A DNA stretch of 64,000 nt, taken from assembly GCF_010685995.1 (NCBI RefSeq), contig NZ_JAAGWK010000021.1, forward strand, positions 1 to 64,000, read 5' to 3'. Source of the DNA: Goekera deserti (GTDB lineage Bacteria; Actinomycetota; Actinomycetes; Mycobacteriales; Geodermatophilaceae). Under the pieces are notes generated by a model. The model was not told where the DNA came from. It saw only the letters and a program-made list of their open reading frames with translations, and made no database searches. The position numbers and the translations under genes were made by a program. The stretch's first letter is position 1. Each line of letters begins with the position of its first letter. Positions 36,500 to 41,255 of the stretch are shown one piece after another.

Positions 36500-37930
36500 G
36501 TGACCACCGCCGACCCCGCCGTCCCGATGGCCGGCCAGCGGGACCGACGCCCGGCCCGCGTGCTCGCGCGCGGGCTGGGCGTGCGGCACGCGGGCCGGCT
36601 GGCCTGGGCGCTGCGCGACGTGGACCTCGTCGTCGAGCCGGGCGAGCGGGTGCTGGTGACCGGCGCGTCCGGGGCCGGGAAGTCCACCCTGCTCACCGCC
36701 GTGGCCGGCCTGCTCGACCCCGACTCGGCCGAGCTCACCGGTGAGCTGACCGTGGACGGGCACCCGCCGCGGGACCGGCGCAGCGGGCTGGGCCTGCTCG
36801 CCCAGGACCCGGACAGCCAGCTGGTCATGACCCGCGCCGGGGACGACGTCGCGTTCGGGCTGGAGAACGCCGGCGTGCCCGCCGAGCAGATCTGGCCGCG
36901 GGTCGACGCGGCGCTGGCCGCGGTGGGCTTCCGGCACGGCCGGGACCGGCCCACCCAGGCGCTGTCCGGCGGGGAGAAGCAGCGCCTCGTGCTGGCCGGC
37001 GCGCTGGTGCGCCGGCCCGGCCTGCTGCTGCTCGACGAGCCCACCGCCCAGCTCGACCCGGACGGCGCAGCCCTGGTGCGCTCCGCGGTGGCCCAGGCGA
37101 CCGCGGACCGGGCGGTGACCGTGCTGGTCGTGGACCACGACGCCGGGCCGTGGCTGCCGCTGGTCGACCGGGTCGTGCAGGTCGGCCCGGACGGCGTCGT
37201 CGAGCACGGGCCGGACTGGCGGCCCGTGCCGCGGACGAGCGGGCTGCAGCTCCCGCCGGGTGGTGACGGACCGGTCCTGCTCGCCGCCCACGCCGCCGGC
37301 TGGACCTACCGCGGGGCGGCGGCGCCGGCGCTGCCGCCCACCGACGTGGAGCTGCGGGCGGGTCGGGCCGTGGCCGTGACCGGCCGGAACGGCACCGGGA
37401 AGTCCACCCTCGCGCTGCTGCTGGCCGGTCTGCGGGCGCCGACCACCGGGCGGGTGGAGGCCGCCGACGAGCTGACCGCGGGAGCCCGCCGGCGGGAGCC
37501 GCACCGCTGGCGGGCCGCGGAGCTGGTCACCCGGATCGGCACGGTCTTCCAGCAGCCCGAGCACCAGTTCCTCACCGGCCGGCTGCGCGACGAGCTGGCC
37601 CTGGGGCCGCTGCGCTCCGGGTCCGGCGACGCCGCCGCCCGGGCGATGGCCGACGAGCTGCTGGAGCGCCTCGGCCTCGCCGCGTTCGCCGACGTCAACC
37701 CGTTCACGCTGTCCGGCGGGCAGCAGCGCCGGCTGTCGGTGGCGACCGCGCTGGCGACGTCCCCGCGGGTGCTGGTGCTCGACGAGCCCACCTTCGGCCA
37801 GGACGCCGCGACCTGGCGGGAGCTGGTGCAGCTGCTGGCCGAGCGCCGCGCCGCCGGGTGCGCGGTCGCGGTGGTCACGCACGACGCCGACCTGGTCGAC
37901 GTGCTGGCCGACGAGGAGCTGCGGCTGTGA
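36500..37930 (+). CDS. ykoD: ECF transporter double ATPase YkoD
   Basis: A 476-residue fused pair of ABC ATPases that powers thiamine-precursor uptake. The first half has Walker [11 protein letters not shown] (about residue 54), signature LSGGEKQRL and Walker [13 protein letters not shown]. The second has [10 protein letters not shown] (about 294), [11 protein letters not shown] and [12 protein letters not shown]. Both sites look intact. GTG start, 10 bases after the ykoE stop. Confidence 0.93.
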
Positions 37931-37988
37931 CCGCCTCCCTGCTCCCAGAACCCGCTGTGGCCCCCGCCCTGCCCCCGGACCCCGCCCT

Positions 37989-38753
37989 GTGACCGCCTCG
38001 CTCGCTCTGGGGCCCACGCCCGACGTCCCGCTGTCCCGGGTCAACCCGGTCGCCCAGCTCGCCGCGATCGTCGCGGTCACCGTCGTCCTGCTGACCAGCC
38101 TGGACGTCGTCACGCCGGCGGTCGTGCTGGCCGCCGAGCTGTGCCTGCTGCCCGCCGCCGGCCTGACCAGCCCCCGTGCGCTGTGGCTGCGCACCTGGCC
38201 GTTGCTGTTCGGCGCGGTGATGGTGGGCGTGGTCAACGTCGTGCTGTCCCGGGACGCCGCGCTGGTCACCGGCCTGGGCCTGGCCCTGCGGGTGGTCGCG
38301 CTGGCCCTGCCCGGCGTCCTGCTGGTGGCCGCCACCGACCCGGTGCGGCTGGCCGACGCGCTGACGGTGCACTGGCGGCTGTCCACCCGGTTCGCCTACG
38401 GCGCGCTGGCGGCGCTCCGGCTGGCCCCGCTGCTGGTCGTGGAGCTGGAGTCGGTGCGGCTGGCCCGGCGCACCCGCGGCGTCGACGCCGGCCGCAACCC
38501 GGTCGCCCACGCGCGGCTGCTGGCCGGGATCGGCTTCCTGCTGCTGGTCAGCGCGGTGCGCCGGGGCACGCGGCTGGCCACCGCCATGGACGCGCGCGGC
38601 TTCGACTCCGGCATCCCGCGCACCAACGCCCGCGGCTCCACGCTGCACGCCAGGGACGCGGTGTTCGTGGCCGGCACCGTCGCGGTCTGCGCCCTCGCCG
38701 TCACCACCAGCGTGCTCACCGGCGCCTGGGACCCGATCTTCGTCGGCGGCTGA
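37989..38753 (+). CDS. ykoC: ECF transporter T component YkoC
   Basis: A 254-residue EcfT-family coupling protein with several membrane helices (LAAIVAVTVVLLTSLDVVTP, LLFGAVMVGVVNVVLS, VVALALPGVLLVAAT). It has the two short cytoplasmic ATPase-binding motifs typical of T components: ARRTRGVDAGRNP and AMDARGFDSG, the latter with the Ala-Arg-Gly signature. It couples YkoD hydrolysis to YkoE. GTG start. The sequence CTGTGACCGCCTC occurs both at the ykoD stop and here. Confidence 0.9.
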   Translation: MTASLALGPTPDVPLSRVNPVAQLAAIVAVTVVLLTSLDVVTPAVVLAAELCLLPAAGLTSPRALWLRTWPLLFGAVMVGVVNVVLSRDAALVTGLGLALRVVALALPGVLLVAATDPVRLADALTVHWRLSTRFAYGALAALRLAPLLVVELESVRLARRTRGVDAGRNPVAHARLLAGIGFLLLVSAVRRGTRLATAMDARGFDSGIPRTNARGSTLHARDAVFVAGTVAVCALAVTTSVLTGAWDPIFVGG

Positions 38754-38769
38754 CCCCACCCGACGGCCC

Positions 38770-38948
38770 TCCCCGCGCAAACGGCCGCCGGTGCGCCCGA
38801 CCCCCCAGCCCTTTCCGCGGAAATGGCCGCCGGAGCACGACCCTCGGCGGCCCTTTCCGCGGAAACGGCCGCCGGTGCCCGACCCCGACGGCCGTTTCCG
38901 CGGAAGTGGTCGGGGGCGCGCGACCCTGGGCGGCCGTTTCCGCGGGAA
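38770..38948. repeat. Five-unit tandem array of a 42-bp palindrome repeat
   Basis: Five units start at 38770, 38812, 38854, 38895 and 38937, each 41-42 bp apart. Each is centred on TTTCCGCGGAAA or a close variant and flanked by GGCC and GCCGCCGG words. The first unit is the most decayed. The array exactly fills the gap between the convergent ykoC and ABC permease genes, so it may also stop transcription in both directions. Confidence 0.88.
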
Positions 38949-38957
38949 GGGCCGGAG

Positions 38958-40502
38958 TCAGGTGCGGGAGGAGTGGGCGGTGTGCACGGCGACCGCGCCG
39001 AGCAGCAGGGCCCAGCCGAGCTGGACGGTGAGCAGCAGCTGGGTCGGCTCACCCACCAGCAGCGCGACGACGAACGGCAGCGTGCCGACGACGCCGACGT
39101 CGAGACCGCGCACCAGCGTCGCGCCCACACCACTGGGCACAGCCCCCATCGGCGAGGACACCACCGGCCCGGACCAGTCCAGCTCGGGCCGGTAGCCGCC
39201 GCGCACCGCGGCACCCGCCCAGGCCGGGGCGGCGGCCGCGCCGAGCAGCAACCAGCCCACCGGCAGCCCGGCGCCCTGGCTGACCAGCAGCGCAGAGACG
39301 CCGCACACGCCCACCAGCACCACCAGTGGGACGACGGCGCGCGCCCGCACCACCTCCCGGTCGGCCAGCGGCAGCATCCGGTCCGCGGCCGGTGCGGCCT
39401 GCGCGTGCCGGCTGGGCTCGCCGAGGGCCACCGCGGCCAGGGCCCAGCCGAGCACCACGGCGATGCCGACCAGCGGCGGGGACTCCCCCAGGCCCTCGGT
39501 GCGGGCCACCAGCACCGGCAGCAGGCAGCCCACCACCAGCTGCCCCCAGCGCCACGGCGAGCGGGTCAGCACCGCGAGGTCGGAGGCGACGACCGCCTGT
39601 GCCGCGGTGCGCACCCGGCCGAACGCGGCCGGCCGGCGGCCCCGGCGCACCGGCCGGGCCAGCGCCCGCCCGATCGCCCGGGTGTCCAGGGACAGCACCG
39701 ACGCCGAGGCGTACTGCACCGTCTCCCCGCCGGCCCGCAGCACGCCGGCCCGCAGCCCGGCCAGACCCCGGTCGCCCAGCACCAGGCCCGCGACGGCCAG
39801 CAGCGCTGCGGGCACCAGCAGCCACCAGGACCCGCCGGCCACCAGCACCGGCCAGGACGACGGCAGGCACAGCTCCAGCCAGTACGGCGGGTCGCCGACG
39901 GCGGCGCCGAGGGCGTGCGCGGCGGTGCCGCCCAGGGCCGGTAGCGCCACGGCCAGCACCGTCACCAGCCCGGCGGCGGCACTGACCCGACCCCCGCGCC
40001 CGGCACCCTGGGCGGCGGCCAGCAGCCCGGTGACGGCGGCGCCCAGCAGCCCCGCGCAGGCCAGCCCCAGCAGCACCCCGGTCACGGTGGGCGAGCGCGC
40101 CCCGGACAGCACGACCGGCAGCCCGAGCACGACCGAGACGACGACGGCGACCAGGCCGATCCGCCACAGCTCACCGCGCAGCAGGCCCCGGCGGGCCGCC
40201 GGCAGCGGCAGCCACCACGCGGCGGCCGGCGGCGTCGCGCTGACCGGGCCCAACTGGTCCAGCAGGCCCGCCAGGGCGGCGGCCACCACCAGGCCCGCGA
40301 CCGCGGCGCTCACCGACCCGGGCAGCACCGCCGAGACGGTGTCCTCCCGGGAGCGGATGTCCTCCCGCAGCGAGGTGATCGTGCTGCCCAGCGCGGCAAC
40401 GACGACGGCGGCGCCGGTCACGTAGGAGACCAGGTCGCCCAGCAGGGTCAGCCAGCTGGTGTCGGCCCGCGCCGCGGAGGCCCGCCGGGTGAACCGCCGC
40501 AC
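38958..40502 (-). CDS. ABC transporter permease, DUF6297-like
   Basis: A 514-residue polytopic protein with roughly ten to twelve hydrophobic segments and no catalytic motif. It is the only membrane partner for the ATPase encoded 66 bp upstream, so the two should form a complete ABC exporter. Substrate unknown. The GTG start is the only one in frame after the ATPase stop codon. Resemblance to DUF6297 is from memory of such actinobacterial permease pairs. Confidence 0.8.
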   Translation of the reverse strand: MRRFTRRASAARADTSWLTLLGDLVSYVTGAAVVVAALGSTITSLREDIRSREDTVSAVLPGSVSAAVAGLVVAAALAGLLDQLGPVSATPPAAAWWLPLPAARRGLLRGELWRIGLVAVVVSVVLGLPVVLSGARSPTVTGVLLGLACAGLLGAAVTGLLAAAQGAGRGGRVSAAAGLVTVLAVALPALGGTAAHALGAAVGDPPYWLELCLPSSWPVLVAGGSWWLLVPAALLAVAGLVLGDRGLAGLRAGVLRAGGETVQYASASVLSLDTRAIGRALARPVRRGRRPAAFGRVRTAAQAVVASDLAVLTRSPWRWGQLVVGCLLPVLVARTEGLGESPPLVGIAVVLGWALAAVALGEPSRHAQAAPAADRMLPLADREVVRARAVVPLVVLVGVCGVSALLVSQGAGLPVGWLLLGAAAAPAWAGAAVRGGYRPELDWSGPVVSSPMGAVPSGVGATLVRGLDVGVVGTLPFVVALLVGEPTQLLLTVQLGWALLLGAVAVHTAHSSRT

Positions 40503-40568
40503 CCCGGCGGCGGTGAGCTCACCGGCCTGGTCGGCGTGGGCGTGCCCGGGCAGTGCGGTGTCCGTGGC

Positions 40569-41255
40569 TCAGCCCTCGTGCAGCGCGGCGACGGCCTCGG
40601 CCGGGCCGGTGAGCCGGCAGGCGTCGTCCCCGACGATCAGCACCCGGCGGGCGAGGGTGGCCAGGAACTCCGGATCGTGGCTGGCGAACACCACGGTCAG
40701 CCCGTCGGCGACCTCCTCGCGCAGCCGCTCGGCGAGCCGGCGCCGCATCCGGGTGTCCAGCCGGCGCTCCGGCTCGTCGAGCACCAGCAGCCGGGCCGGC
40801 CGGACGAACGCGGCCGCCAGCGCCAGCCGCCGCCGCTGGCCGGAGGAGAGCGCCGAGGGCAGGGCGTCGGCCCGGTCCTGCAGCCCGAACTCGGCGATCT
40901 CCGCGGCAACGACGTCCTCCGCGGCGTCGACGCCGTGCCCGCGGGCGGTGAGCAGCAGGTGCTCCTGGCCGGTGAGCGAGGGGAAGAAGGCGTCGTCGTC
41001 CAGCACGGTGGCGACGTCCCGGCGGAACCCGGCCTCCCGCTCGTCGACGTCCCGGCCGTCGAACTGGACGCTGCCGCTGATCGGGGCCAGCAGCCCCACC
41101 ATCGTCTGCAGCACCGTGGACTTGCCGGCGCCGTTCGGGCCGACCACGCCCAGGGCGGTGCCCTCGGTGACGGCGACGCTGACCGGCGCGCACACCGGGT
41201 CGGTGCCGTAGCCCACGACGAGGTCGCGGGCGATGATCAACCCCTTCGTCGCCAC
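40569..41255 (-). CDS. ABC transporter ATP-binding protein
   Basis: A 228-residue ATPase. Walker A is GVVGPNGAGKST (about residue 35), the signature is ALSSGQRRRLAL (LSSGQ, a variant of LSGGQ), Walker B is LLVLDEPERRLD, and the switch histidine is in VVFASHDPEF. GTG start; an upstream ATG extension has no coding character. It is co-transcribed with the downstream permease and probably exports an unknown substrate. Confidence 0.9.
   Translation of the reverse strand: MATKGLIIARDLVVGYGTDPVCAPVSVAVTEGTALGVVGPNGAGKSTVLQTMVGLLAPISGSVQFDGRDVDEREAGFRRDVATVLDDDAFFPSLTGQEHLLLTARGHGVDAAEDVVAAEIAEFGLQDRADALPSALSSGQRRRLALAAAFVRPARLLVLDEPERRLDTRMRRRLAERLREEVADGLTVVFASHDPEFLATLARRVLIVGDDACRLTGPAEAVAALHEG

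Follow-up and report, generated by a model that had tools for sequence, protein, structure and literature searches.

What is a row of tandem palindromes doing between the ends of two convergent genes, and how would it be read? The question is raised by a short intergenic gap of Goekera deserti that lies within the window, the stretch of 64,000 nucleotides analysed here (positions 1 to 64,000 of contig NZ_JAAGWK010000021.1). Five 24-bp imperfect palindromes occupy positions 38764-38954 (the window array) with successive spacings of 42, 42, 41 and 42 bp, in agreement with the initial annotation, which had described five tandem units at these intervals between convergent genes. The genes are cbiQ and a gene encoding a DUF6297 protein, and the region is composed as follows.

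37989..38753, + strand: cbiQ, encoding a CbiQ-type transport protein (PF02361); its stop lies 10 nt ahead of the array
38754..38957, no strand: intergenic gap of 204 bp, nearly full of the array, with 10 nt before it and 3 nt after it
38764..38787, no strand: palindrome copy 1, degenerate, 3 mismatches (by reading of the sequence)
38806..38829, no strand: palindrome copy 2 (pattern match)
38848..38871, no strand: palindrome copy 3, an exact match to the 24-mer pattern (pattern match)
38889..38912, no strand: palindrome copy 4 (pattern match)
38931..38954, no strand: palindrome copy 5 (pattern match)
38958..40502, - strand: DUF6297 gene (PF19814), convergent to cbiQ; its end lies 3 nt beyond the array

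The palindrome had also been called perfect. This was true of two of the five units over the 12-bp core TTTCCGCGGAAA; two other units carried one mismatch in the core, the core of the first unit read TCCCCGCGCAAA with three mismatches, and over 24 bp all five units were imperfect palindromes. When up to two mismatches were allowed, the core matched five times in the window, four times in the array and once at position 40898, and none of 100 dinucleotide shuffles of the window reached five matches. The search of positions 38500-39200 against Rfam gave no score near the gathering score (top score 23.2 bits, cut-off 77.5), and a plasmid search gave two weak matches at 14% coverage.

A search for the motif across the genome (4.84 Mb, 61 contigs), as the initial annotation had proposed, detected 117 copies of the 24-mer CGGCCNTTTCCGCGGAAANGGCCG at up to three mismatches and none of the reversed control, and the exact core occurred only six times genome-wide. 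The window array is thus not unique: 114 of the 117 sites sit in extracted stretches, the window included, that were grouped into 32 loci, and three were unlocated. The clusters were located by DNA similarity, with 40 of 195 candidates scored and eight weak single matches left out. At up to five mismatches the 32 loci contained 136 sites, with at most seven copies in one array. Tandem arrays of at least two copies were present at 31 of the 32 loci; the remaining locus, L058, is a single copy at a contig end. The units were mostly arranged head-to-tail in the same orientation, with a few mixed arrays (e.g. L057, L061 and L068). The spacers were 6-30 nt long, with 39-40 nt in two gaps; they were mostly repeated inside one array and looked unrelated between arrays. 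A CRISPR array was rejected on these grounds, since CRISPR spacers are unrelated and of similar length. In viral contigs no tandem motif pair was detected, and two single sites were found with a looser pattern. We found no description of this palindrome family in the open-licence literature, where the core string also turns up in five papers unrelated by title.

We propose, with a probability of about 0.42, that the window array is part of a REP-like extragenic family, in which the palindrome is bound as duplex DNA by a putative dimeric protein and arrays presenting one face of the helix are favoured. A single ancestral copy would have spread and then been multiplied in place, the palindrome would be read as double-stranded DNA by the putative dimer, and one-face units would be favoured since neighbouring dimers could align into one complex. 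Located downstream of genes, the assembled dimers might act as a roadblock to readthrough transcription or as an anchor of the chromosome or of supercoiling.

The spacing of the copies bears directly on this proposal. Among copies at up to six mismatches, with gaps of at least 60 bp excluded, adjacent copies were 30-35 bp apart in 83 of 110 intervals, 40-44 bp in 17, 51-54 bp in nine and 37 bp in one. The spacing classes of 31-33, 42-44 and 53 bp are near multiples of 10.5; single spacings include 40 bp in L050 and 51 bp in L054, and the excluded long gaps, of 63 bp (L055) and 64 bp (L072), each contain a degenerate middle copy. With one median per array (29-31 arrays, three mismatch limits) the mean cosine at 10.5 bp was 0.77-0.83 and the best period was 10.6. 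Most arrays of this genome fall in the 31-33 bp class, and because this common class may reflect inheritance, not selection, the longer-period arrays offer a fairer test of phase. The seven to nine arrays with a period of at least 40 bp showed a mean cosine of 0.66-0.73, with P = 0.001-0.003 against uniform spacings; when the period was scanned from 9 to 13, P was only 0.015-0.045 depending on the mismatch limit, which counts against our reading. Out-of-phase cases were also observed, namely L067 (37 and 35 bp) and L061, which mixes 53 and 44 bp. The earlier suggestion that the spacing places the units on the same face of the helix is therefore upheld for most arrays of this genome with moderate statistics. 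Whole-turn spacing in most arrays would fit a protein-binding array, and the window array may work like one.

The exact core was present in 21 of 112 genomes of the family, with uneven copy numbers, and absent from 91; the motif is hence not confined to this genome, and the case that the initial annotation had named as favouring chance slippage, a unique array missing from every relative, does not apply. The core was detected in 'Streptomyces' NP160 as well. The genome groups g12 and g5 we take to be Blastococcus and Geodermatophilus. Exact-core copies numbered 65 in G093 (g5) and 44, 29, 27, 12 and 9 in five of the 23 g12 genomes, with none in the other 18. The 24-mer with the arms of this genome was matched in 10 of the 112 genomes and, besides this genome, exceeded four copies only in G093 (65) and G104 (15). 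This patchy presence favours a different explanation, in which the palindromes are selfish or neutral REP-like repeats without a host function, spread by a copying enzyme, tolerated downstream of genes and multiplied through replication slippage. Such an origin is possible, if rather unlikely. The spacing classes would on this account be inherited or produced by the slippage mechanism itself; however, spacings of 42-44 and 53 bp recur in arrays with unrelated spacers. The preservation of the core also stands against selfish repeats and supports our proposal: genera share an identical core, whereas the arms vary with the lineage (CTGCT/AGCAG in Blastococcus, GGCGG or GGCGA in Geodermatophilus and GCAC/GTGC in NP160).

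The spacing differed between genera as well: 23-25 bp in Blastococcus, mostly 33 bp (also 29 and 40) in Geodermatophilus and 41-42 bp in NP160, with mean phase cosines of 0.08 (out of phase), 0.51 (partly in phase) and 0.96 (in phase), respectively. Phasing is therefore not family-wide, which counts against dimers aligned on one face. A genome contig scan for pairs of exact cores separated by 16-46 bp yielded 42 stretches, 27 of which were read together with two g12 loci; the scan with an earlier pattern containing the arms of this genome gave no match. Some of the 42 stretches, in unrelated bacteria, may represent chance or another system. Exact cores with other arms were seen in clusters, five in about 2 kb of L126 (Mycolicibacterium) and four within a few kb in L105 (Gordonia), perhaps belonging to another system.

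The comparison of equivalent gene junctions in different genomes revealed that the elements come and go. In 20 relatives cbiQ could be located, and in three of these a DUF6297 homologue (60-67% identity) was directly convergent with it; the gaps at those three junctions measured 17, -4 and 3 bp and contained no array, as would be expected of selfish repeats. A single similar palindrome, CGTTCCCGCGGGAACG, was present 31 and 45 nt past the cbiQ stop in the g9 relatives L036 and L038. Its presence suggests that the family is broader and includes variant cores; an RNA hairpin would account for it equally well. The terminator scan left it unmarked. A second copy of CGTTCCCGCGGGAACG was seen in L038 at about position 2225. 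Just downstream of pafA, which encodes Pup ligase, four of 20 g12 genomes carried two motif copies starting 6-7 nt past the stop codon, an incidence that again favours selfish repeats; the linkers of the four pairs differ and the second copy sometimes has one mismatch. In G069 (L164) an unrelated long hairpin, whose arms measure about 23 bp, was found in place of the motif pair and in G063 another short hairpin; to judge by eye, only about 4-21 nt seem to separate pafA from the gene after it in G019 and G070, and the remaining junctions had other sequence, including that of G071, which has the core elsewhere.

The observation that a different hairpin can take the place of the motif pair, together with the finding that some Blastococcus pairs combine into one large palindrome and with the single CGTTCCCGCGGGAACG palindromes behind cbiQ, speaks for an element acting at the RNA level. 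The arrays would then be tandem hairpins at mRNA 3' ends, serving as bidirectional terminators free of a U tract or as barriers to exonucleases. We consider this explanation unlikely, and somewhat more so than selfish repeats. The position of the arrays relative to genes, determined from gene calls of a codon-usage script trained on the window and not from a standard gene finder, is one of its strengths. The 32 loci comprised 13 convergent, 15 tandem, three divergent and one unclassified setting, compared with 19 convergent, 68 tandem and 18 divergent neighbour pairs in a 124-kb sample of the window's contig. Convergent gaps were enriched (13 of 31 classifiable loci vs 19 of 105 sampled pairs, Fisher p 0.008); the shortage of divergent loci was not significant (p 0.20). 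Tandem loci lay at a median of 20 nt past the upstream stop codon and 73 nt ahead of the next start, and the stop was nearer in 12 of the 13 usable cases, L051 and L053 being excluded as loci that overlap a called ORF. In all 26 convergent and usable tandem loci the nearer stop codon was 0-62 nt away, and six of seven places in Blastococcus lay 6-9 nt past a stop codon, the seventh being divergent; these seven are not all independent, since two belong to one pafA junction and another two apparently to a second shared junction. The enrichment in convergent gaps and the closeness to the upstream stop support the preferred reading as well; against it stands that RNA hairpins, too, are expected at gene 3' ends. 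Three arrays were located in divergent (promoter) gaps, against the 3'-end rule (L054:3648-3934, L066:8693-8809 and L061:3006-3126); two of these three calls depend on short weak ORFs.

The folding of the palindromes tells for and against the RNA element. As RNA the whole window array folds very stably (-157 kcal/mol, z -6.8), and it is similar to an intrinsic bidirectional terminator in placing hairpin-forming sequence between convergent genes. Terminators of that kind differ from this array in its several repeated units, in its uncompensated mismatches and in its want of a T tract: no T tract (5 T in 8 nt) was detected on any of 272 copy sides (136 copies, both sides), and no terminator-like site was detected at positions 37000-41000, which include the array. 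The usual array consensus, when oriented, is CGGCCACTTCCGCGGRAASGGCCG. Positions 6 and 19 were unpairable in 30 of the 32 loci, in 29 of these as A-G or A-C, and positions 7 and 18 were C-A in 25 of 32 array consensuses; this shared asymmetry suggests one ancestral copy and counts in favour of selfish repeats. Both sides had changed at positions 7/18 in 1 of 136 sites (18.2 expected) and at positions 9/16 in 10 of 136 (13.9 expected), so neither pair is compensated, in counts inflated by the fact that sites within one array are not independent. With its conserved mismatches the hairpin has an energy of -11.2 or -12.3 kcal/mol compared with -17.6 if perfect, a cost of about 5-6 kcal/mol. Helical phasing would be unexpected for RNA, and neither transcribed strand was preferred, as the units of 14 tandem arrays (L050 excluded as unclear) were oriented 7:7 relative to transcription. 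Conserved and uncompensated mismatches, even orientation and the lack of T tracts favour a duplex-DNA site, which would explain the pattern more easily than a selected RNA stem. Since an array was found at only one of the 19 convergent junctions in the 124-kb sample, the motif does not serve this organism as its general terminator. For the window array, termination in both directions had been one of the functions first proposed; its position permits this, whereas the absence of T tracts and compensatory pairing, and gaps of at most 17 bp in three relatives, count against its being the main function. Many of the copies listed for G093 have GGCCA in one half and GGCGA in the other, again a one-sided mismatch.

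If the palindromes were copied as selfish repeats, a copying enzyme might be recognisable. Pfam01797 is, according to PMC2817692, the domain of RAYTs. No match to it was detected in 17 genomes of the family, with and without the motif and including that of Goekera deserti (E 0.001), in a search whose control was positive in 5 of 14 named genomes. A RAYT or IS200-type transposase as the source was rejected on this result, which weighs against selfish repeats. The family nevertheless resembles REP elements and BIMEs as characterised in PMC2817692 and PMC3733652, where these appear as short imperfect palindromes in many extragenic copies, mostly downstream of genes, often clustered and occupying convergent and unidirectional gaps alike. 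PMC1590033 allows a further comparison with REP by size, copy number and placement. REPs tagged with CGTC apparently have no dedicated transposase, to judge from PMC3733652, and share this trait with the family. Unlike REP and BIME, this family showed no Pfam01797 match and no conserved tetranucleotide tag (GTAG or CGTC) in the outer flanks of the 32 loci compared; unlike the alternating copies of BIMEs, its units are mostly head-to-tail with a locus-specific spacer and a spacing near whole helical turns. It differs from the CGTC-tagged REPs in its missing CGTC, its phased arrays and its core. We regard it as a REP-like palindrome family of unusual head-to-tail and helix-phased form with no known partner, a variant of dispersed extragenic palindromes.

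Palindromes in tandem are likewise found at partition sites. The F plasmid parS (sopC) is described in PMC6238139 as a series of twelve 43-bp units in tandem that contain 16-bp inverted repeats, close in unit length to the 41-42 bp of the window array. Unlike F parS, the palindromes occupy 32 chromosomal loci, and the window array has CbiQ and DUF6297 as neighbours with no partition genes beside it. The F parS sequence also differs from this palindrome. Noc sites are similar in being dispersed chromosomal palindromes, and the array core resembles parS and Noc binding sites. Neither of these two sequences was found in the text of PMC7383237 when it was searched for them. A role as ParB- or Noc-type sites of chromosome segregation or nucleoid occlusion is, despite these likenesses, very improbable. 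A single ParB_N match and no second ParB were detected in the genome, and Noc sites differ also in that the motif here stands in tandem arrays. The palindrome near parB was GTTCCACGTGGAAC in all seven family genomes looked at, the present one included (L153-L161), and is likely the chromosomal parS of Geodermatophilaceae; it differs from the array core, and ParB/Noc was rejected as the reader, a negative result that also counts against our proposal of a bound protein. The absence of the exact core from most of the family also argues against such sites. TTTCACGTGAAA was absent from eight genomes searched.

Relative to a uniform distribution the arrays had a bias towards the replication origin (p 0.0008-0.008). 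It was dropped because control places taken at even intervals along this genome show most of it (p 0.05-0.19), and this lack of significance also stands against segregation sites. The test employed 26 array-flank fragments (6 of the 32 loci were left out beforehand), of which 19, 20 and 20 were used after weak or doubtful matches were removed by hand, and the control, placed by an identical procedure, employed 40 evenly sampled places, of which 25, 28 and 28 were mapped. Orientation relative to replication was 13 to 4 (p 0.049), too weak to claim, with L048 dropped because the references disagreed.

Why palindromes are scattered downstream of bacterial genes is a long-recognised question, to which the usual answers are RAYT transposases or RNA hairpins. 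The present family combines no RAYT match, a core that crosses genera with changing arms and, in this genome, mostly whole-turn spacing, also in arrays with unrelated spacers. On a bolder view, speculative and in our judgement doubtful, the arrays would be docking sites for a DNA-organising system not yet described, present in Geodermatophilaceae and in certain other actinobacteria. In it a putative dimeric reader of TTTCCGCGGAAA, seated on phased arrays behind genes, would insulate transcription units or anchor the chromosome, and the arms would co-evolve with the protein. Recognition of duplex DNA is directly testable, with about 30 natural arrays of varied spacing in one genome and, in the patchy presence among relatives, natural negative controls. 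The genes beside the arrays of L054, L059 and L066 looked ordinary by eye. In L059 (3065-4309) a 302-aa gene that scores less well for codon usage is flanked by two arrays whose units point in opposite directions, and its product shows, judged by eye, an AbiEi-like/DUF559 resemblance.
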